A stretch of 64,000 nucleotides of DNA from an uncultured Verrucomicrobia subdivision 3 bacterium (GTDB lineage Bacteria; Verrucomicrobiota; Verrucomicrobiia; Limisphaerales; UBA11358): positions 1 through 64,000 of the forward strand of contig CAITTG010000072.1 of assembly GCA_903895255.1 (NCBI GenBank). The letters run 5' to 3'. This document shows, piece by piece, positions 44,336-60,036 of this stretch (the first letter of the stretch is position 1; every line of letters starts with the position of its first letter). The translations under genes and the position numbers were made by a program. Under the pieces are notes generated by a model. It was given only the letters and a program-made list of their open reading frames with translations, had not been told where the DNA came from and did no database searches.

Positions 44336-45742
44336 TCATTTGGCGGCCTTGAATTCCCGGCGGGCGGCGTCATAGACCCGGGTCAGGGGTACTTTGGCCG
44401 CGAGGGCCAGTTTCTTGCAGGCTTCAAACTCCGGCGCGATCTGCACGATCTCGCCGTCCAGCCGCCCCAATTTAACGGTGACTTTGCCAAACTTGGTTTT
44501 AACCTCGGTAAATTCCCGGCGCAGTTTCCGGCGCTCGGCCACCGTCCGGCGCACCCCAAAGACGCTGGTTTCCCGCAGCATGAGGGCGGCAAACTTGTCC
44601 GCCTCGGCCTCGGCGCACAAAACCGTCAGCAACACCCCGGGCCGGTTCTTTTTCATCTGGATGGGGGTGTGGAATACGTCCAGCGCCCCCGCCGCGAGGG
44701 CGGTTTCCACAAAATTCCCGAGGATCTCCGCGTTGATGTCGTCACAATTGGTTTCGAGCACGGCGACGCGGTCGGTTTCCCAGTCATGCGGCACTTTGGC
44801 GCTGGCCTGCCCGAGAATGGCGCGGAGAACATTTGGACGGGTCAGATTGTCGCGGGTGCCGACGCCAAACCCAATTTTTTCGGCCACCAAGTTGTCCATG
44901 GGCGCGAAGCCCTCGGCAAACTCGGCCAGCAAGGCGGCCCCGGTGGGGGTGACCAGTTCATGGGGCTCGGAACATTGGGTGACGGGGATGCCGCGCGCGC
45001 CCAGCAGGGCCAGGGTGGCGGGGGCCGGCAGGGGGAAGCGGCCGTGGGCGCATTTGATCCAGCCGGTGCCCTCGACCACCGGCGCGGCGAGCACACGCGG
45101 TTTGCCGAGCAGCTCCAAGCCGATGCAGACACCGACGATATCCACGATGGAATCGACCGCGCCGACTTCATGAAAATGAACCGATTCCACCGGCTGACCG
45201 TGAATACGGCCCTCCACTTCGGCGAGCCGCTGAAAGACAGCGGTGGATTTTTGCTTCACCCACGGGGAGAGTTTGCTGGCGGCAATCAGCTTTTTAATTT
45301 CGGCAAAGTTACGGGAGTCCTCGTGGTGGTGTGCGTGGTCATGCTCATGCTCGTGGTCATGAGCGTGGGCAGGTTCATGATCCACCCCGGGTTGGTGGGG
45401 GTGTTCATGGGTGTGCTGATGATGCCCATGCGCGTGCGGATGGCTGTGGCTATGACCATGCTCATGCTCATGCTCGTGAACGTGTTCGTGACCATGGGAA
45501 TGGCCAGACTCGTGACCATGCTCATGGCCATGGTCGTCGTGGTCATCTTCGAGATGGACATCGACCTTGATGCCGGCGATGCCGTTTTTTTCCTGCTCAT
45601 TCACATGCAGGTGGTAGCCATCGAGCTTGAGCTTGCCGAGTTCACGGCCAAGTTTTTGGGGGTTCACACCCAAATCGATAAGCGCGCCCAGGAACATGTC
45701 GCCACTGATGCCGCTGAAGATGTCGAGGTAGAGAGTTTTCAT
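44336..45742 (-). CDS. larC: Nickel-pincer cofactor protein LarC
   Basis: The protein has 468 residues. LarC inserts nickel into the pincer nucleotide cofactor of lactate racemase-type enzymes, using CTP. Conserved parts: LYLDIFSGISGDMFLGALIDLG at the start, VHFHEVGAVDSIVDIVG, EGTGWIKCAHGRFPLPAPATLALL, ELVTPTGAALL and ETNCDDINAEILG. A very His-rich insert (about residues 66-145, repeated HGHEH/HSHPH words) likely stores or captures nickel. It overlaps larB by 4 bases. larA and larE are not in the window. Confidence 0.95.
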   Translation of the reverse strand: MKTLYLDIFSGISGDMFLGALIDLGVNPQKLGRELGKLKLDGYHLHVNEQEKNGIAGIKVDVHLEDDHDDHGHEHGHESGHSHGHEHVHEHEHEHGHSHSHPHAHGHHQHTHEHPHQPGVDHEPAHAHDHEHEHDHAHHHEDSRNFAEIKKLIAASKLSPWVKQKSTAVFQRLAEVEGRIHGQPVESVHFHEVGAVDSIVDIVGVCIGLELLGKPRVLAAPVVEGTGWIKCAHGRFPLPAPATLALLGARGIPVTQCSEPHELVTPTGAALLAEFAEGFAPMDNLVAEKIGFGVGTRDNLTRPNVLRAILGQASAKVPHDWETDRVAVLETNCDDINAEILGNFVETALAAGALDVFHTPIQMKKNRPGVLLTVLCAEAEADKFAALMLRETSVFGVRRTVAERRKLRREFTEVKTKFGKVTVKLGRLDGEIVQIAPEFEACKKLALAAKVPLTRVYDAARREFKAAK

Positions 45743-46509
45743 GGAGTTGCCAAACGGTTGATCTGGCTGGCGGCGTAGCCGGCGCCGAAGCCGTTATCGA
45801 TATTGACGACGGTCACGCCGCTGCCGCAGGAGTTCAACATGCCCAGCAAGGCGGCCACGCCGCCGAAACTGGCGCCATACCCAACGCTGGTGGGCACGGC
45901 GATGACGGGTTTGGAGACAAGCCCGGCCACGACGCTGGGGAGCGCGCCCTCCATGCCGGCGACGACGACGAGGACGTTGGCGGTTTGCAGGGTTTCCAAC
46001 CGCGCGAGAATCCGGTGCAGGCCAGCCACGCCGGCATCCGAGATGCGTTCGACGTGGTTGCCCATGACTTCGGCGGTGACGGCCGCCTCCTCGAACACGG
46101 GCAAATCGCTGGTGCCGGCGCAGATGACCGCGATGACACCCGGGCGCTTGGGCAGGGGCTTTTTCTCGATGGTCACGCAGCGGGCGGCGGCGTGATGGAC
46201 GGCGATTTTAAATTTGCGGCGCAGGGCGCGGGCGTGTTCGGGGGTCACGCGGGTAATGAGCACGGCCGATTCGCGCTCCAAGAGTTTGGCCGCGATTTTG
46301 ACGACCTGGTCGGGGGTTTTGCCGGCGCCGTAAATGACCTCGGGAAAACCCTGGCGCAGGGCGCGGTGAGTGTCCACCTGGGCGAATCCGAGGTTTTCGG
46401 TGGGGGCGGCCTGGAAAGCCTGCAGGACTCGTTCGCGCGGGAGCTTTCCGGCGCGCCAGGCTTCCAGCAATTCAATGGCTTCGGAGGTTGTCACGGGCAC
46501 ATGATACAA
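45739..46509 (-). CDS. larB: Nickel-pincer cofactor protein LarB
   Basis: The protein has 256 residues. LarB carboxylates and hydrolyses nicotinic acid adenine dinucleotide, the first step to the pincer cofactor. The C-terminal half is an AIR-carboxylase-like (PurE-like) fold: VICAGTSDLPVFEEAAVTAEVMG, RISDAGVAGLHRILARLE, VVVAGMEGALPSVVAGL, VPTSVGYGASFGGVAALLGMLNSC. Stop overlaps the larC start (ATGA). Confidence 0.93.
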   Translation of the reverse strand: MYHVPVTTSEAIELLEAWRAGKLPRERVLQAFQAAPTENLGFAQVDTHRALRQGFPEVIYGAGKTPDQVVKIAAKLLERESAVLITRVTPEHARALRRKFKIAVHHAAARCVTIEKKPLPKRPGVIAVICAGTSDLPVFEEAAVTAEVMGNHVERISDAGVAGLHRILARLETLQTANVLVVVAGMEGALPSVVAGLVSKPVIAVPTSVGYGASFGGVAALLGMLNSCGSGVTVVNIDNGFGAGYAASQINRLATP

Positions 46510-47334: not shown

Positions 47335-50238
47335 TCAAGGCACGCTTGGCCGGGGGGTGGCGGGCTGGGTCGTGACGGTGGCGGTGGCGGGTTGGAGCCC
47401 GTCAGCGGTGGCAGTGAGGGTGATTTGGCCGGGGTCCCGGGTGGACTGCACCATGATTTGCGCCAGGCCGTTAAAGGCACTGCGAGACCAGGCCAGCTTG
47501 ACGGGCTCGCCGGTGAGCACCAGGTTCACATCCGGGTTGAGGCCGCCGGAGCCGGAGGCATTCAAGACGCCGACAGCGATGAGATTGTCGCCGACGTGCA
47601 GGGCGGATTTGACTTCATAGGCGGGTTGCGCGGACCAGTCGGTGGATTCGCCCACGCGTTGATTGTTCACGAAAATCCAGCCGTGGTCATCGATGCCGCC
47701 AAAAACGAGCTGGAGGCTTTTCTCGGCGAGCTGTTCCGCGGTGACATTCACATGCGCGCGGTAAATGGCGGTCTGCCCCTCCCGCAAGAACAGGCTGCCG
47801 GTGTCGCCATCGGTCTTCGTCCGGATCCGGTTCCAGGCGGAGTCATCCACCCCGGGGGCGTATTCCGGAGCCAGCTCCCCGTGAGACGGGACCGGGGCCA
47901 GTTTCCAGCGCCAGTCATTGACGGGCAGGGAATTGAAGGGCGTTGGGGCGACAAAGGTATCCGGCTCGTGACAGCTCGGATCCCCGTTGCCGACGCCCAG
48001 GATTTTACCAGCGCCGGCCGCGGCAAAATTAATTTTGTTCCCGGCGGTGGGGACGACCCGGCCCTGGGCATCGATGACGGAGACGGTGAAGACGCTGACA
48101 TCCTCGCCATCGGCGTTAATGGTGGCCCGGTCCGGGGTGAGTTGCACGGCGTACGGCTCGGTGGTGGTTTCCACTTTCGTCTCGGCAATCACCACCCCGC
48201 CCGAGTAACCCCGGGCCTCCAGGGTGCCCGGCGTGTAATTCACCAGCCAGGAGAGCTTGGAATTTTTCTTCAAGGTGCGCTGGCCCAGGGGCTGGCCGTT
48301 GAGCACGAGTTCCACCTGGTCACAGTTGCCCAGCACATCCACCCGCACCGGCCGGCCCTCGTGACCGGACCAGTTCCAGTGGGGCAGAATATGCAGGACC
48401 ACATTGGTGGTCCACCACGCCTGATAATAATAGAAATTGTCCTTGGGAAAACCACACGTGTCGAGCACGCCAAAATGGGAATTGATGCAGGGCCATTCGT
48501 AGGGGGTGGGTTCGCCGCGATAGTCAAAACCGGTCCAGACGAAGCCACCGCTCAACCAGGGACGGTCGGCGAAATAACTCCACCAGCGCTCGGTGGTGGT
48601 GGCCCAGGAGGGGGCGTTGTCGTCATAGGCGCTGACATAGCCGCGCTTGGGGTCATTGGCGTAAATACCGCGGGTGGAGACAGTGCTGGCCTGTTCGGTG
48701 CCCACGTTGGGCTGGTCGGGATGCTCGGCGTGGTAGCGGTCCATTTCGTCGCCCACGTGATAATTCCAGCCGCGAACCTGAATCACGCTGTTGACGCCGG
48801 CGAAGACGTCGCCTTCCGGGGCGGCATACGTTTCGGGCCGGGTCGGATCCAATTGTTTTGCCAGATTCTGCATGGTGCGGGCGACATTGGCGCCCTGGGG
48901 GGTGTCCTGCACGTAAAACTCCTCATTGGCAATGCTCCAGATGCCCACGCTGGCGTGGTTGCGGTCGCGGCGGATTTGGAGTTCCCAGCGGCGGAGGTTT
49001 TCCGGGTCGCTGCCGAGGAGCCGGCTTTCATCCATGACCAGCATGCCCAGATGGTCACAGGCCGTGAGCAATTCGGGGGTGGGCGGATTGTGCGAGGTGC
49101 GGTAGGCATTGCAGCCAAACGTCTTCAGTTTGGCGATGCGGAAGTATTGGAGCGCATCCGGCAGGGCGGCGCCGACCCCGGCCATGTCCTGGTGATTGCA
49201 GGTGCCTTTCAATTCATAGTGCTGGCCGTTGAGGAGAAAGCCGTTGTCGGCATCGAACCCCACGGTGCGAATGCCGAACTCGGTGGTCTGACTGTCCACG
49301 GGCCGGCCATCGACCTCCACGGTGGTCACCAGTTGGTACAGCTTGGGGTTTTCCGGGGACCAGAGCTGGTACTGCGGCAGGGAAAAGGACAGACCGTCGG
49401 CGTCCGTGGAGGCTTCTTTGCGGGAACGGGCATCCAGCGGAACGGTGTCCCGGAGTTCGCCAAGAATGGAGCCATCCGTGTCTTTGAAGGCATAAACCAC
49501 GCGCGCGGTCACGGGGACATCCTGGGAATTGATCAGCGTCACGGCCGCGTGCAAATTGGCGGGGCCCACGGGGACGTTGTTGGTGAACTGGGAATAAACA
49601 AACACACCGTCCGGGGCGATGGCGACCGGCGCGGTTTTATCGAGCCAGACATGGCGGTAAATGCCGGCACCCTCGTAGAACCAGCCTTCAAATTTGCTGG
49701 CATCCACTTTCACCGCGATGCTGTTGTGGCCGCCCAGGTGAACGACATCGGTGATATCCGCGCGAAAAGGGTAGTAGCCGCTTTCGTTGCGGGCGACGAT
49801 CCAGCCGTTGACCCAGACAGTGGTGTCGCGGAACGCGCCGTCGAACTTGAGCCAGATGCGCTTGCCGGCATCCGTCTCGGGCAGGTCAAAGGTGCGGCGG
49901 TACCAGCCAACGCTGTTTTGGTGGAAGCCCGGACCGACGGGTTTAAAACCGTGGCTGCCGTCGGCGGTGGCATCGAAGGGCAGCTCAATGGCCCAGTCGT
50001 GGGGCAGATTCAAGGAGCGCCAGTTGCCGTCGCTGAATTTTTCGCCGGCGGGGCCGTCGCTGGACCCCGCCTTGTCCAGGCGCAGGGCGTTGGGCCAGTC
50101 GTCGCCGAGGTGAAATTTCCAATTGGCGTCGAGGGAAAGATGTTCCCGCAACGCTTCCTGGGCGCGGACCGGGGTCAGACCGCCAAGCAGCGCCACCAGC
50201 AGCACCAGCCGGGGGGCAAGAGTACTAATCAATTTCAT
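47335..50238 (-). CDS. Secreted GH2 beta-galactosidase-like enzyme
   Basis: The protein has 967 residues with a signal peptide (LVLLVALLGGLTPVRA). Sugar-binding domain (WRSLNLPHDWAIELPF, GWYRRTFDLPE), Ig-like domain, then the barrel (LNGQHYELKGTCNHQDMAGVGAALP, TFGCNAYRTSHNPPTPELL). The acid/base Glu lies in WSIANEE, and the nucleophile is probably the Glu of VGTEQAST. C-terminal Ig-like (DUF4982-type) domains follow, plus an inserted module (GIDDHGWIFVNNQRVGESTDW) and a final Ig-like tail. It removes a terminal beta-linked sugar; galactose is the family default, not proven. Probably periplasmic or surface-bound. Confidence 0.9.
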   Translation of the reverse strand: MKLISTLAPRLVLLVALLGGLTPVRAQEALREHLSLDANWKFHLGDDWPNALRLDKAGSSDGPAGEKFSDGNWRSLNLPHDWAIELPFDATADGSHGFKPVGPGFHQNSVGWYRRTFDLPETDAGKRIWLKFDGAFRDTTVWVNGWIVARNESGYYPFRADITDVVHLGGHNSIAVKVDASKFEGWFYEGAGIYRHVWLDKTAPVAIAPDGVFVYSQFTNNVPVGPANLHAAVTLINSQDVPVTARVVYAFKDTDGSILGELRDTVPLDARSRKEASTDADGLSFSLPQYQLWSPENPKLYQLVTTVEVDGRPVDSQTTEFGIRTVGFDADNGFLLNGQHYELKGTCNHQDMAGVGAALPDALQYFRIAKLKTFGCNAYRTSHNPPTPELLTACDHLGMLVMDESRLLGSDPENLRRWELQIRRDRNHASVGIWSIANEEFYVQDTPQGANVARTMQNLAKQLDPTRPETYAAPEGDVFAGVNSVIQVRGWNYHVGDEMDRYHAEHPDQPNVGTEQASTVSTRGIYANDPKRGYVSAYDDNAPSWATTTERWWSYFADRPWLSGGFVWTGFDYRGEPTPYEWPCINSHFGVLDTCGFPKDNFYYYQAWWTTNVVLHILPHWNWSGHEGRPVRVDVLGNCDQVELVLNGQPLGQRTLKKNSKLSWLVNYTPGTLEARGYSGGVVIAETKVETTTEPYAVQLTPDRATINADGEDVSVFTVSVIDAQGRVVPTAGNKINFAAAGAGKILGVGNGDPSCHEPDTFVAPTPFNSLPVNDWRWKLAPVPSHGELAPEYAPGVDDSAWNRIRTKTDGDTGSLFLREGQTAIYRAHVNVTAEQLAEKSLQLVFGGIDDHGWIFVNNQRVGESTDWSAQPAYEVKSALHVGDNLIAVGVLNASGSGGLNPDVNLVLTGEPVKLAWSRSAFNGLAQIMVQSTRDPGQITLTATADGLQPATATVTTQPATPRPSVP

Positions 50239-50494: not shown

Positions 50495-53400
50495 ATGACC
50501 ATGCATGCGACCTTTCACCACCGGCTGCTGGCCGGAGCCCTGCTCTGGCTGGCCACCCTGCCCGCCGGGGGCGAGGCGGTGCTGACCTACCACAATAACA
50601 ATGCCCGCACGGGCGCGAACACCAACGAGACCCAGCTCACCCGGGCGAATGTCAAGCCCAAGACCTTCGGCTTGTTAATGCACTATGACGTGGATGCGTA
50701 TGTCTATACCCAGCCGCTGGTGGTGCCCGGGGTGCTGATTCCGGGGCGCGGCCGGCATGACGTCGTGTACATCGCGACGGAGAATGACACGGTTTACGCG
50801 CTCGATGCGGTCAGCCAGGCCGGTACCGGTGGGGGCGTCCTCTGGCAGCGAAGCCTGGGCGAGGGCGTCAACGTGGTGACGAATCATGAATTTGGCGGCC
50901 GTTACCACAACAACGTGCTGCAAGACATGCTGCCCCGGGTGGGCATCACCGGCACGCCGGTGATTGACGCGGACGCGGGAACGATTTACGTGGTGGCATT
51001 GAACCGGGAGGTGACCGCCACCACGAATTATTACCACCGCCTGCATGCGCTGGACATTGCCACCGGCGCGGAGCGGCCGAACAGTCCCGTGAACATCACG
51101 GCCACTTACCCCGGCCACGGGAACACCAGCGTCAACGGCGTGCTCACCTTCAACCCGCGCCAGCAAAACCAGCGCTGCGCGCTGACGCTGGCCGGCGGCG
51201 TTTTGTATATTGCCTACAGCAGTTATGCGGACACCGACCCGTACCAGGGCTGGATCATCGGCTATGACGCGCACACGCTGCAACCCCTGCCCAAACAGGT
51301 CTTCAACACCGCGCCCGACGCCACCGTCGCGGTGTTCGGCTCGCACGCGGGCGAGGGGGCCTTGTGGATGGGCGGCAACGGTCTGTGCGTGGACGAGCAC
51401 TCCAACCTGTTTTTCGAGGTGGCCAATGGCAGCTTCGACGCGGACCAGGGCGGGGACGATTACGGGGACAGTTTCATGCGCCTAGCCACGACCGGCGGCA
51501 TCACGGTGATCGATTATTTCACGCCCTTCAACCAGGCCGCCTTGCAGGCGGCGGACGCCGACCTGGGCTCGGGCGGGCCGGTGCTGCTGCCGGATGAGGC
51601 CGGCAGCCCGGAGCATCCGCACCTGATTGTGGGCGCGGGCAAGGAAGGCAAGGTGTATCTGGTGGACCGCGACGGGATGGGCCATTACAACCCCACGAAC
51701 GACGACCAGATTGTGCAATCCTTCCAGATGAACTCCGGCCGGATCTTCAGCACGCCGGCCTACTTCAACCACACGCTGTATTACCAGGGCATCGGCGGGG
51801 TCATGCGGGCCTACGCGATTCAGCACGCCCACCTGGACCCCACGCCCACCTCGATGTCGCGCACGAGCTTCAGCGGGTTTGGCACCACGCCCTCCGTGTC
51901 GGCCAACGGCACGAACGACGGCATCGTGTGGGCCATCCAGACCGATGGCGCGACGCGTGGCGGGCCGGCGGTGCTGCACGCGTATAATTCCGACGACCTG
52001 GCGGATGAACTTTACAACAGCCGCCAGGCGGGCGAGCGCGACAACCCGGGGATCGCCGTGAAAATGACCGTGCCCACGGTGGTGAACGGGCGGGTGTATG
52101 TGGGCGTGCAAGGGGGGCTGGCGGTGTTTGGCAATGGCGAGTTTCTGCCGCCGCCGGTCATCACGCCAGCGGGCGGTGATTTCGTCAATTCCGTGGTGGT
52201 AAGCCTGGCGGATGCCGCGTCCGGCGCGGGGATTTATTACACCCTTGATGACTCCGCGCCCACGGCGGCGGCCACCCTCTACACCGGGCCGTTTGCCGTG
52301 ACCAACACGGCGAAGCTCCGGGTGCGGGCCATCAAGCCCGGGGCGGTGAGCAGCCGGGAGGCCGGCGCGAGCTATGTGAACACCGCCTCGGCCGGTCACG
52401 GCACGGGCCTGACCGCGCAATTCTGGCCCGGGGACGCCAACCCGGACGCGCCGGCGCTCGTGACGCGCACGGACCCGGCGGTGGCTTTCGACTGGACGAC
52501 CACCGCCCCCGCCCCCGGGATTGATCCGGGCCATTTCACCGCGCGCTGGACCGGCGCGGTGCAGGCCCAGTATGGAGAACCTTACACCTTGACCACGGTG
52601 GCGGGCGGCGGGGTGCGCCTGTGGGTCAACGACCAGTTGGTCATCAACGATCCCCTGCCCCACCCCACCCCGGCGACCAACTCGGCCCGCCTCAGCCTCC
52701 GGGCGCAGCAATTATACAATGTCCGCCTGGAGTATAACCATGCCGGCGGCAGCGGCGGGGTGAAGTTGTGGTGGAGCAGTCCCTCGACTCCGCCGGGCGC
52801 GCCGCCCACGGCCCAGCTCTATCCGGACAGCAATCCCGCGCCCACCGTCACCCTCGTGCGTCCGCTTGACGGGGCCACCTATGCCGGCCAGGCCAGCGTG
52901 ACCATGGGCGCCCAGGTGGCCACGGTGCGCAACACCATCGCCAGTGTGGATTTTTATGCCAACGGCACTTTGCTTGGCACCCTGCACGACAGCGTGTACG
53001 CGCCGGTGTTCGCCCTCACCGCCACCGGACTGGCCGCCGGGGCTTATACGATCACCGCCGTGGCGACCGATGGCAGCGGCCTGGCCAGCACCTCGGCGCC
53101 GGTGAACATCACGGTCACCGCCGGCAGCGGGCGGCCCTACGGGTTGACCACCAACGCCCCGGTGCCAGCCTATCTCAACCTGCCGGCCACCTTCAACGGC
53201 GCCCTGCCGCCCCTGCTCTCCGGCACCGGCGTGTTTGCCGACACCGCCGCGCGCACCCCGGCCCCCGGCCTGATTCCCTACACGCTCAACCAGCCCATGT
53301 GGACCGATGGCGCGACCGCCCGCAATTACCTGGCGGTTCCCCGTCGCGACGGGCCGCTCACGCCGGACGAGCAGATCCGCCTGCGCCCCACCAACGCCTG

Positions 53401-54181
53401 GGTGTTCCCCGCCGGCACGGTGTTGGTGAAAAATCTTGATCTCACGGTGGATGAGCGCAACCCCGCCGTGCCCGCGCGCCGGCTGGAAACCCAGATCCTT
53501 GTGCGCGATGCCAATGGCGCGGTTTATGGCATGACCTACAAATGGCGCCCCGACCAGAGCGACGCCGACTTGCAACCCGTCGGTTCCGCCGAGGACATTC
53601 TGATTACCAACGCCACCGGCGTGCGCACCCAGACATGGACTTACAGCAGCCCGGCGGACTGCCTGACCTGCCACACCCCCGTGGCGAATTACGTCCTTGG
53701 CGTGAACACCCGCCAGCTCAATGGCGACCTCACCTATCCCGCGACCGGCGTCACTGACAACCAGATCCGCACCCTCAACCGGCTGGGCATGTTCAGTCCC
53801 GCGATTAGTGAAACGACGATCGCCAGTTACCGCAAGCTCAGCGCCCTGGCGGATGCCAAAGCCCCGCTGGCCGAGCGCGCCCGCTCCTGGCTGGACGCGA
53901 ATTGCGCGGAATGCCACCGCCCCGGTGGCGTGGCCAATTTCGACGTGCGTTACGACACCGCTTTGGCGAGCCAGCACCTTACTAATTTCCCGGCCGGCGT
54001 CTCGCTGGGCTTCACCAACCCGGAAATCATCGCCCCCGGGGACCTCAGCCGGTCCGTGTTGTTCGCGCGCATGAACACCAACGCCCCCACCATCAAGATG
54101 CCCCCCCTCGGGCGCAACCGGATTGACGCGACGGCGGTGCAAGTCATGGCGGACTGGATTAATGGTCTGCCGACGCCCTGA
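50495..54181 (+). CDS. Propeller / PA14 / diheme cytochrome c chimera
   Basis: The protein has 1228 residues with a signal peptide (LLAGALLWLATLPAGGEA). Residues of about 30-545 form a PQQ-like beta-propeller (YIATENDTVYALDA, LAGGVLYIAYSSY, VNGRVYVGVQGGLAVFG). At 550-630 lies a chitobiase C-terminal-like module (GIYYTLDDSAPTAAATLYTGP), at 640-780 a PA14 module (LTAQFWPGD, VRLWVNDQLVINDP), and at 785-880 an Ig-like module (ASVDFYANGTLLGTLHD). The last 340 residues resemble SO2930-type diheme cytochromes, with CLTCH near 1056 and CAECH near 1137. It may take electrons from an unknown periplasmic substrate. A few bases past its stop begin two small membrane proteins. Confidence 0.85.
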   Translation: MTMHATFHHRLLAGALLWLATLPAGGEAVLTYHNNNARTGANTNETQLTRANVKPKTFGLLMHYDVDAYVYTQPLVVPGVLIPGRGRHDVVYIATENDTVYALDAVSQAGTGGGVLWQRSLGEGVNVVTNHEFGGRYHNNVLQDMLPRVGITGTPVIDADAGTIYVVALNREVTATTNYYHRLHALDIATGAERPNSPVNITATYPGHGNTSVNGVLTFNPRQQNQRCALTLAGGVLYIAYSSYADTDPYQGWIIGYDAHTLQPLPKQVFNTAPDATVAVFGSHAGEGALWMGGNGLCVDEHSNLFFEVANGSFDADQGGDDYGDSFMRLATTGGITVIDYFTPFNQAALQAADADLGSGGPVLLPDEAGSPEHPHLIVGAGKEGKVYLVDRDGMGHYNPTNDDQIVQSFQMNSGRIFSTPAYFNHTLYYQGIGGVMRAYAIQHAHLDPTPTSMSRTSFSGFGTTPSVSANGTNDGIVWAIQTDGATRGGPAVLHAYNSDDLADELYNSRQAGERDNPGIAVKMTVPTVVNGRVYVGVQGGLAVFGNGEFLPPPVITPAGGDFVNSVVVSLADAASGAGIYYTLDDSAPTAAATLYTGPFAVTNTAKLRVRAIKPGAVSSREAGASYVNTASAGHGTGLTAQFWPGDANPDAPALVTRTDPAVAFDWTTTAPAPGIDPGHFTARWTGAVQAQYGEPYTLTTVAGGGVRLWVNDQLVINDPLPHPTPATNSARLSLRAQQLYNVRLEYNHAGGSGGVKLWWSSPSTPPGAPPTAQLYPDSNPAPTVTLVRPLDGATYAGQASVTMGAQVATVRNTIASVDFYANGTLLGTLHDSVYAPVFALTATGLAAGAYTITAVATDGSGLASTSAPVNITVTAGSGRPYGLTTNAPVPAYLNLPATFNGALPPLLSGTGVFADTAARTPAPGLIPYTLNQPMWTDGATARNYLAVPRRDGPLTPDEQIRLRPTNAWVFPAGTVLVKNLDLTVDERNPAVPARRLETQILVRDANGAVYGMTYKWRPDQSDADLQPVGSAEDILITNATGVRTQTWTYSSPADCLTCHTPVANYVLGVNTRQLNGDLTYPATGVTDNQIRTLNRLGMFSPAISETTIASYRKLSALADAKAPLAERARSWLDANCAECHRPGGVANFDVRYDTALASQHLTNFPAGVSLGFTNPEIIAPGDLSRSVLFARMNTNAPTIKMPPLGRNRIDATAVQVMADWINGLPTP

Positions 54182-54260
54182 AGTTCCAATCCGCTTGACC
54201 TGACCGGATACGTTGGCGGAGAATCGTTGCCAGCGTGAACCAACCACCAGCAACCAAATC

Positions 54261-54716
54261 ATGAGTGAAGTCATCCTGATGGTCCATGTGCTGTTTGGCG
54301 TTGGTTGTCTGCTGGCGACCCTCTGGGTGCTGGTGGACACGCTGAATGCCTCGCCCAAAAACCTGGCCCGGATTCACGCGTTCAGCAAAGTCGCCGCGGC
54401 GTGCATGTGGGTGGCGTTCGTGGTTGGTGGTTACTGGTACGTGACGTTTTACAAGGCGGACAAGGCGGTCATTTTGAAGGGGCCGTGGCCTTTCGCCCAT
54501 AATTTCTTCATGGAAACCAAGGAGCATCTGGTAATCCTGCTGTTGTTGCTGGCCACGTACCTGCCCATCGCGGCGGCGGCCAATCTCGCGGCGAGCCGCG
54601 ATGCCCGGCGCGTGGTGCTGGCGGTCGCCGCCCTGATGATCGGGCTGGCCCTGACGGCGGAAGGTGACGGGGCCATCATCGCCATGGGCGTCAAAATGGG
54701 CTTGCTGGCGCGATGA
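54261..54716 (+). CDS. Four-helix membrane protein
   Basis: The protein has 151 residues from the ATG at 54261. Helices: VILMVHVLFGVGCLLATLWVLVDTL, VAAACMWVAFVVGGYWYVTFY, HLVILLLLLATYLPIAAAANL and VVLAVAALMIGLALTAEG. No family is recognised; conserved His residues in helix 1 and before helix 3 could bind heme. Placed 79 bases behind the cytochrome chimera and one base ahead of another membrane gene, so it may be its membrane partner (inference). Confidence 0.65.
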   Translation: MSEVILMVHVLFGVGCLLATLWVLVDTLNASPKNLARIHAFSKVAAACMWVAFVVGGYWYVTFYKADKAVILKGPWPFAHNFFMETKEHLVILLLLLATYLPIAAAANLAASRDARRVVLAVAALMIGLALTAEGDGAIIAMGVKMGLLAR

Positions 54717-54717
54717 T

Positions 54718-55059
54718 ATGAAAACCCCCAAAGCACATCACGAAAACCCCGGGCTTTCACCCGCCACCCGCTCTTTCGGGGTGGCGCTGGCCCTGGCCAG
54801 CGTGGTAAACGGCCTGCTGGTGGTGGCGAAGGAAAGCAGCCCGGCGGTGCAAGCCGGCATGCAAAAGCTCACGGGCCACCATTGGATTACCCACAGCCTG
54901 ATTATTCTGGGGTTGTTTTTTGTGACAGGCGGAATTTTGGGCCGGCTGAATGGGGGCCGGGGCATCCGGCTTTCTTTTGGTCAACTGCTGGGCACCGTCC
55001 TGTCCGGCGTGGCACTGGGCGGGCTGATTATCGTGGGATTTTATTTGGTGGGAGACTGA
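54718..55059 (+). CDS. Three-helix membrane protein
   Basis: The protein has 113 residues from the ATG at 54718. Helices: SFGVALALASVVNGLLVV, THSLIILGLFFVTGGILG and LLGTVLSGVALGGLIIVGFYLVG. No family is recognised. It is one base after the preceding gene and ends 11 bases before the convergent gene at 55071. Confidence 0.6.
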   Translation: MKTPKAHHENPGLSPATRSFGVALALASVVNGLLVVAKESSPAVQAGMQKLTGHHWITHSLIILGLFFVTGGILGRLNGGRGIRLSFGQLLGTVLSGVALGGLIIVGFYLVGD

Positions 55060-59615: not shown

Positions 59616-59780
59616 AAGGCCGGACAACTTGTCCGGCCTTTGGTGATAAGGTTTACACGCCCTCACCGGGACGTTCAGAAGTGTGGCGGGCCAACACAGT
59701 CGCTGTTCGGACCGCGCCACGAGCAAAACCTCTCTGCCAACCCTGAAACGAACAGCGAAATTGATTACTGTTAATGAGAC
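59612..59780 (-). ncRNA. Tandem structured RNA candidate, copy 1
   Basis: On the minus strand the element ends in the hairpin GGCCGGAC/GTCCGGCC (59618-59638) followed by TTTTAATTTTT, an intrinsic terminator. Upstream, TCGCTGTTCG (59700-59709) pairs with CGAACAGCGA (59749-59758), and GTGGCG (59683-59688) with CGCCAC (59715-59720). The U-A pair at 59704/59754 replaces the C-G pair of copies 2 and 3, a compensatory change. A conserved TTGAAC lies upstream on the minus strand. No coding frame with a standard start fits. Also acts as the 3' end of the hydrolase gene on the plus strand. Confidence 0.6.
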
Positions 59781-59865
59781 GCGCCAGTTTAAGAACTGTT
59801 CAAAGTTTGTAACAATAATTCAAAAAGGCCGGCGGGATTCCCCGGGTGGCCTGGCCCGGGGCAAA

Positions 59866-60036
59866 AATAAAAGGCCGGACAACTTTGTCCGGCCCGTGGT
59901 GATAAGGTTTATACGCCCTCACCCGGACGCTCAGAAGTGTGGCGGGCCAACACAGTCGCCGTTCGAACCGCGCCACGAGCAAAACCTCTCTGCCAACCCT
60001 GAAACGAACGGCGAAATTGTTCGTTATTTATGAGAC
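59866..60036 (-). ncRNA. Tandem structured RNA candidate, copy 2
   Basis: About 165 bases nearly identical to copy 3. Terminator stem GGCCGGACA/TGTCCGGCC, then TTTTATTTTT on the minus strand. Helix one: TCGCCGTTCG (59956-59965) with CGAACGGCGA (60005-60014). Helix two: GTGGCG (59939-59944) with CGCCAC (59971-59976). The two helices are interleaved, so they form a pseudoknot or alternate. Confidence 0.6.

Follow-up and report, generated by a model that had tools for sequence, protein, structure and literature searches.

A secreted fusion of propeller, glycan-type modules and diheme cytochrome from Limisphaerales as a candidate polymer-bound quinohemoprotein dehydrogenase

Type II quinohemoprotein alcohol dehydrogenases (ADHs; structures 1kv9 and 1kb0) carry an N-terminal beta-propeller and a C-terminal heme c in one chain, and their propeller is of the same eight-bladed type as that of the methanol and ethanol dehydrogenases that use pyrroloquinoline quinone (PQQ; TIGR03075). 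The glucose dehydrogenase Gcd is anchored in the membrane by its N-terminus and lacks heme. In fungi, the AA12 enzyme CcPDH is a secreted PQQ sugar dehydrogenase joined to a cytochrome b (AA8) and a carbohydrate-binding module (CBM1) in a single chain (PMC4332668), while the secreted multidomain protein Cbp2D of the bacterium Cellvibrio japonicus combines a carbohydrate-binding module with c-type hemes and is linked to polysaccharide breakdown (PMC8981238). In this study we analysed a stretch of 64,000 nucleotides (hereafter the window; positions 1 to 64,000 of the forward strand of contig CAITTG010000072.1, assembly GCA_903895255.1) from an uncultured Verrucomicrobia subdivision 3 bacterium of the Limisphaerales, and in it a gene for a 1228-residue protein, hereafter the chimera, in which a quinoprotein-like propeller, three glycan-type modules and a diheme cytochrome follow one another.

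Our analyses indicate that the chimera is probably a quinohemoprotein dehydrogenase that is secreted, held in place by its glycan modules, oxidises sugars derived from glycans and passes electrons through two fused c hemes. The 1228-residue open reading frame (ORF) at 50495-54181 (+) has a strong coding signal, and the open frame together with its domain matches far exceeds chance. Pfam and NCBIfam searches and an AlphaFold2 model bore out the domain list proposed in an earlier reading of the letters and ORFs (hereafter the sequence-only reading), as follows.

50495..54181, + strand: whole chimeric gene, 1228 aa, encoding a secreted propeller-CHB-PA14-Ig-diheme cytochrome protein (ORF, domains, and a domain order shared by orthologs and paralogs)
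50495..50575, + strand: predicted signal peptide, residues about 1-27, with no lipobox (sequence read by eye)
50576..52141, + strand: quinoprotein-like beta-propeller, residues 28-549 (AlphaFold2, Foldseek, hhalign)
52166..52354, + strand: CHB_HEX_C_1 / Fn3-associated module, residues 558-620 (Pfam E 2.7e-13, above cut-off)
52403..52786, + strand: PA14 module, residues 637-764 (Pfam E 4e-21, above cut-off)
52841..53059, + strand: bacterial immunoglobulin-like (Ig; Big_7) module, residues 783-855 (Pfam E 1.8e-9, above cut-off)
53207..54166, + strand: SO2930/HNE_0200-type (TIGR03806) diheme cytochrome module, residues 905-1224 (NCBIfam E 3.4e-61, below cut-off; AlphaFold2 predicted local distance difference test, pLDDT, 90)

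The AlphaFold2 model of the first domain was propeller-like (mean pLDDT 86, predicted template modelling score 0.90). Foldseek placed 1kv9 at the top (E 3.4e-13), followed by 8gy2 and 1kb0, all of them quinohemoprotein or membrane-bound ADHs, among 541 hits at E<=0.001. Tetrathionate hydrolase (7cqy) was the fourth-best PDB match (E 3e-11) and BamB structures scored nearly as well; because both rank so close behind the ADHs, fold alone is not decisive, and a residue-level comparison was made. A phmmer search of the propeller against PDB sequences returned no match. A profile comparison with five near-identical XoxF sequences was unusable and succeeded once diverse PQQ dehydrogenases and further propellers were added: hhalign then gave an alignment between 116 propellers of the family and 12 PQQ dehydrogenases that was collinear across 417 columns (prob 97.5, E 8e-12). 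Thirteen columns were conserved and identical in both families, three of them pocket residues (W291, N311 and D356) and the others fitting structural positions; the A/W/G docking positions (tryptophan-docking motifs) were also common to both.

In this alignment, Trp243 (which we take to be the pocket floor), Asn261, Asp303 and Arg331 of methanol dehydrogenase (MDH) correspond to W291, N311, D356 and K383 of the chimera. An independent alignment with glucose dehydrogenases, including E. coli Gcd, paired D246, W291, D354, D356 and K383 with Gcd D354, W404, D466, D468 and K493, most of which are presumably functional residues of Gcd. As the two alignments differ by two positions, the catalytic Asp would be either D354 or D356. 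The positions concerned are the following.

51230..51232, + strand: D246, aligned with Gcd D354 and adjoining the column of MDH Glu177 (metal side); D in 108/116
51365..51367, + strand: W291, aligned with MDH Trp243 and Gcd W404 (presumed PQQ pocket floor); W in 115/116
51425..51427, + strand: N311, aligned with MDH Asn261 (metal ligand), unmatched in Gcd; N in 112/116
51554..51562, + strand: D354-A-D356, aligned with the catalytic Asp motif (Asp303 in MxaF, D466-x-D468 in Gcd); D354 in 115/116, D356 in 113/116
51641..51643, + strand: K383, aligned with MDH Arg331 and Gcd K493; K in 114/116

Each of the six residues is kept in at least 93% of the 116 propellers, which come from several phyla. 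In a control with BamB of E. coli, a non-enzyme of the same fold, the pocket residues were missing except for one Asp at the position of D356. The look for PQQ-binding residues that the sequence-only reading had recommended thus points to six conserved pocket positions (108 to 115 of 116 sequences). Metal ligands and second-shell residues of MxaF and XoxF were taken as listed in PMC8028316.

The C-terminal module is covered almost end to end by TIGR03806 (model positions 2-313 of 314, residues 905-1224), with a score of 207.1 bits that falls below the curated cut-off of 313.3 bits. Three sites and one region stand out in it.

53660..53674, + strand: heme c site 1, CLTCH, residues 1056-1060; Cys/Cys/His invariant in 32/32
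53903..53917, + strand: heme c site 2, CAECH, residues 1137-1141; Cys/Cys/His invariant in 32/32
54098..54100, + strand: Met1202 (MPP motif), likely sixth ligand of heme 2; invariant in 32/32
53288..53722, + strand: the part around heme 1, residues 932-1076, possibly of a P460 / cytochrome c'-beta-like fold (weak, concordant signs)

In an alignment of 32 modules (A2), the heme motifs occupy columns C168xxC171H172 and C249xxC252H253, so that both CxxCH motifs on which the sequence-only reading depended are retained in all 32 relatives. Although the AlphaFold2 model of the module is confident (pLDDT as above), it had no significant match among PDB structures by Foldseek, and phmmer against PDB sequences gave chance leucine-rich-repeat matches. 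Around heme 2, the module resembles a class I cytochrome c whose sixth ligand would be Met. Three weak signs agree in likening the part around heme 1 to cytochrome P460 or cytochrome c'-beta: hhalign to two P460 sequences (prob 75, aligned up to the CxxCHT motif), a match to Pfam P460 (PF16694) below the family cut-off (E 0.0034, 18.2 against 27 bits), and P460 or cytochrome c'-beta structures at Foldseek ranks 2, 13 and 26, none of them significant; we treat this likeness as a lead rather than a result. Our literature search found no functional study of SO2930 or TIGR03806.

Several chimera genes lie among genes of glycan breakdown. In the window, the divergent neighbour encodes a glycoside hydrolase (GH):

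47335..50238, - strand: secreted GH2 beta-galactosidase-like hydrolase, 967 aa, divergent neighbour and likely context partner (Pfam; GH2 genes beside relatives)

Homologous GH2 genes are divergent to chimera relatives at two further loci (L081 and L082), the first of which also has GH92, GH43 and GH76 nearby, and another GH2 lies 120 bp upstream of a relative at L091. A paralog in the window's own genome (contig C92; L073 6545-14422) is 2625 residues long and unites a GH32 domain (fructosidase-type), Ig-like regions, the propeller, the glycan modules and the diheme cytochrome in one protein; its neighbours include a second GH32 gene and a gene for an alpha-L-rhamnosidase (GH78-type). A GH95 gene stands beside the paralog on contig C5. 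Several chimera loci have no GH neighbour, and the neighbours given here are observations at single loci rather than an enrichment.

The chimera belongs to an expanded family. Besides a full-length ortholog in a related genome (G039; 76% identity), its own genome encodes three further full-length copies (57, 55 and 50% identity; four full copies in all). Two more of its genes carry the heme module apart from the full chimera: in one it follows a GSDH-type propeller, in the other it stands alone with a CHB module. In the genus-level group, comprising 49 genomes, 36 carry the protein in part or whole. Their lengths, about 1200 to 2900 residues, vary with the domains added at the N-terminus: GH32 in the C92 paralog, LamG and Ig in others. 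A search of 195 sampled genomes of the phylum with the propeller profile gave one weak match beyond the genus-level group, and the relatives named here were therefore taken from a scan of public-genome contigs, where the propeller turned up in Verrucomicrobiota (Limisphaerales, Pedosphaera), Acidobacteriota, Burkholderiaceae, Planctomycetota, Armatimonadota and Thermogemmatispora. Among the 80 loci scanned, Verrucomicrobiota alone had the fused heme module, and on the tree of the 116 propellers its fusion requires five gains or losses, against a mean of 23 with shuffled labels. We found no report of a propeller-glycan-module-diheme fusion in a literature search.

Genes for PQQ synthesis adjoin propeller genes of this family in two lineages. 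On contig JAGWNY010000054.1 (Verrucomicrobiota REEB243; G022), the gene of a full-length relative, 62% identical to the chimera, converges on pqqE, with about 7 bases between its stop codon and the end of pqqE; PqqC (331 bits), PqqD (84) and PqqE (510) all score above their cut-offs, and pqqB (read from the sequence) and a 25-residue pqqA follow, completing the cluster.

L080 6846-10024 (contig C71; the same as L116 of JAGWNY010000054.1): pqqABCDE cluster of G022, convergent with the chimera relative

Two closely related Acidobacteria have a heme-free propeller gene with pqqCDE and a pqqB-like gene divergently beside it, and no other quinoprotein was seen in the stretch examined. A convincing PqqE was found in two of the 49 genus-level-group genomes, G022 and G025; the latter has the same pqq gene order, its contig ending inside pqqE.

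Some further observations concern the family and its neighbours. The heme-module copy behind a GSDH-type propeller in the window's own genome (L076 6078-9032, contig C49; 984 residues) joins a PQQ propeller similar to the soluble glucose dehydrogenase (sGDH) to the SO2930-type diheme module found in the chimera, and so represents a second, independent pairing of propeller and hemes that agrees with a PQQ-dependent function. A gene with a prepilin-type start lies directly 3' of several chimera paralogs on the same strand (L074 5081-5806, L086 2357-3082, L089 13005-13772). In a cluster of G019 (L082 3385-8028), a standalone SO2930-type cytochrome, a TonB receptor and a TIGR03866 'PQQ-dependent catabolism' propeller adjoin a 2228-residue chimera. 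The best NCBIfam match of this receptor is PqqU, far below the cut-off, and a PqqU-type importer in this paralog cluster, considered from one distant match (157 against 1200 bits), was too weak to call. A relation to hydrazine synthase was likewise dropped: the TIGR03866 neighbour matches HzsB weakly, through its propeller repeats.

A number of results weigh against a PQQ-dependent function. The PQQ-like propeller superfamily includes non-enzymes such as BamB and PQQ-free enzymes such as tetrathionate hydrolase, and none of the Pfam or NCBIfam models of PQQ families matched the propeller above threshold, PQQ_2 appearing only below it. The chimera lacks the vicinal Cys-Cys disulfide that PQQ alcohol dehydrogenases have, the aligned residues being Leu142 and Gln143 (columns 115 and 116 of alignment A1), and the MDH metal ligand Glu177 has no exact match, its column holding T247 beside the conserved D246. 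The alignment with Gcd is weak overall (prob 28) and leaves N311 unmatched. The independent adjacencies between pqq and propeller genes are only two in number (G022 and the acidobacterial pair). Finally, PqqE is absent from the window's genome at the thresholds used and no PqqU-like receptor was found in it at E<=1e-30, so that the protein would depend on scavenged PQQ unless the genes fall within the 5% that the assembly lacks. Bacteria that import PQQ without making it themselves are known (PMC12124388).

Two other functions of the propeller have to be weighed against these data. The chimera might be a glycan-bound electron-transfer or scaffold protein, whose propeller is a PQQ-free, non-catalytic platform like BamB and whose diheme module alone is redox active, handing electrons from one extracellular enzyme to another. 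The near-equal Foldseek scores of BamB, the sub-threshold propeller hidden Markov model scores, the failure to find PQQ synthesis genes in this genome and most of the genus, and the standalone heme-module copies in the same genomes would all suit such a protein. However, a scaffold gives no reason for six polar or aromatic pocket residues to be conserved across phyla, almost none of which are retained in E. coli BamB, nor does it fit with pqq genes adjoining propeller genes in two lineages, and we consider it unlikely. We regard as improbable a propeller enzyme of other chemistry, i.e. a hydrolase or lyase acting on a polymer or a sulfur compound, as tetrathionate hydrolase does, with conserved Asp residues, no PQQ and the heme module as an accessory. 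The rank of 7cqy among the structural matches agrees with it, as does the lack of a heme module at most family loci examined outside Verrucomicrobiota; against it, the Trp, Asn and Lys positions specifically match a PQQ pocket, the pqq operons are adjacent, and fusion to a diheme cytochrome speaks for a redox reaction.

The partners of the chimera raise two more alternatives. A bacterial counterpart of AA12 or cellobiose dehydrogenase (CDH) serving mainly to feed electrons to lytic polysaccharide monooxygenases (LPMOs) would share its design with the AA12 pyranose dehydrogenase that carries a cytochrome and a carbohydrate-binding module (PMC4332668, PMC5960967), and the c-type cytochrome domain of the bacterial Cbp2D is able to reduce LPMOs (PMC8981238). 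The same search that was positive in one control genome found AA10 LPMOs in none of the 49 genus-level-group genomes, that of the window included; this speaks against LPMO feeding as the chief role, which we hold to be very improbable. The sequence-only reading had assigned the chimera two small membrane partners, M1 and M2; in such a three-gene system they could anchor it or take its electrons, as the common strand and the short gaps (79 bp from the chimera to M1, 1 bp from M1 to M2) might suggest. Gene order in relatives, which the sequence-only reading had itself named as a refuting check, separates them: the fetched stretches of the 15 other genomes with M1 hold no chimera relative, G039, the closest relative, keeps M1-M2 and the genes after them in the window's order but has its chimera ortholog on another contig, and none of the other full-length chimera loci fetched has M1 or M2. 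We consider a three-gene system exceedingly improbable and, since M1-M2 is kept as a unit of its own apart from the chimera, regard both as bystanders.

54261..54716, + strand: M1, small membrane protein, 151 aa, bystander; in 16/49 genomes, beside a chimera relative only in the window
54718..55059, + strand: M2, small membrane protein, 113 aa, bystander travelling with M1; adjoins M1 in 13/15 other loci

Neither protein had a family match above cut-off. The M1-M2 pair is often followed by a gene for a secreted protein of about 260 residues with an AGPPFLTDDP motif. Elsewhere in the window, genes that may be larC and larB, of nickel pincer cofactor synthesis, lie upstream on the minus strand (44336-46509), and two short ORFs with near-identical peptide stretches at about 59680-60030 suggest duplicated intergenic sequence.

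Taken together, the PQQ-pocket residues, the invariant hemes and the GH neighbours and fusions favour the secreted quinohemoprotein dehydrogenase, and lend support to the proposal of the sequence-only reading that the chimera is an extracytoplasmic oxidoreductase on a polymer surface. The data show the domain order, the conserved heme and pocket residues and the gene context; from these we infer PQQ binding, the substrate, the binding to polymer, the electron route and the acceptor. The propeller would seat PQQ together with a metal, either Ca2+ or a lanthanide ion, with D354/D356 as base and metal site, W291 as pocket floor and K383 contacting the cofactor. A sugar or other alcohol freed from a polysaccharide, probably by the neighbouring GH2 (or by GH32 in the fused paralog), would be oxidised there, while the CHB, PA14 and Ig modules might hold the enzyme on the glycan or space its domains. 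From PQQH2, electrons could then reach an acceptor by way of both c hemes in the fused SO2930-type module. A broader scenario, which we advance tentatively and hold to be possible though not probable, sees in these proteins a bacterial class of glycan-anchored quinohemoproteins, functional counterparts of fungal CDH and AA12, in which an unnamed PQQ propeller family, possibly lanthanide-dependent (Asp-x-Asp as in XoxF), is coupled to a diheme module with one P460-like and one class I part and occurs together with GHs or in fusion with them; Limisphaerales would then deploy several parallel polymer-bound sugar-oxidising enzymes on scavenged PQQ. The family is a candidate for a secreted sugar oxidase with cytochrome and glycan modules in one chain in common soil bacteria. 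If PQQ is bound, it would reveal a use for the cofactor in Verrucomicrobiota and Acidobacteria that lack classical PQQ dehydrogenases, and supply a residue set with which to annotate a propeller family unnamed in the profile libraries used.

Compared with described systems, the chimera shares with type II ADHs and the TIGR03075 enzymes the fold, the Trp, Asn, Asp and Lys/Arg of the pocket and, with the former, the order of N-terminal propeller and C-terminal heme c. It differs from them in the missing Cys-Cys pair, the inexact Glu177, two hemes belonging to another module family, three glycan-type modules in between, and scores below those of the family models: TIGR03075 had no match reaching its cut-off in the chimera or its genome, in which no classical PQQ alcohol dehydrogenase was found. 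With Gcd, likewise used by PQQ-importing bacteria, it has in common D354, W404, D466-x-D468 and K493 (D246, W291, D354-A-D356 and K383 in the chimera), but similarity is otherwise weak and the anchor and lack of heme set Gcd apart. The SO2930/HNE_0200 diheme cytochrome is matched over its full length with both CxxCH motifs, whereas in the chimera the module scores below the curated cut-off and is fused behind a propeller and glycan modules. The AA12 enzyme CcPDH has a comparable plan with a different, sGDH-like propeller, a cytochrome b and CBM1 in place of a c-type diheme module and CHB/PA14/Big_7, and homology is not claimed; no GSDH-type match (AA12/sGDH-like) was found in the chimera propeller with Pfam, sub-threshold matches included. 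Cbp2D is likewise secreted, bacterial and built of several domains, among them a carbohydrate-binding module and c-type heme domains, but no quinoprotein propeller has been reported in it. The chimera is therefore not assigned to the type II ADHs, because it lacks the disulfide and scores too low against the model, to Gcd, because it lacks the membrane anchor, or to AA12, because it lacks a propeller of that type, and we suggest that it may work like all three without belonging to any of them.

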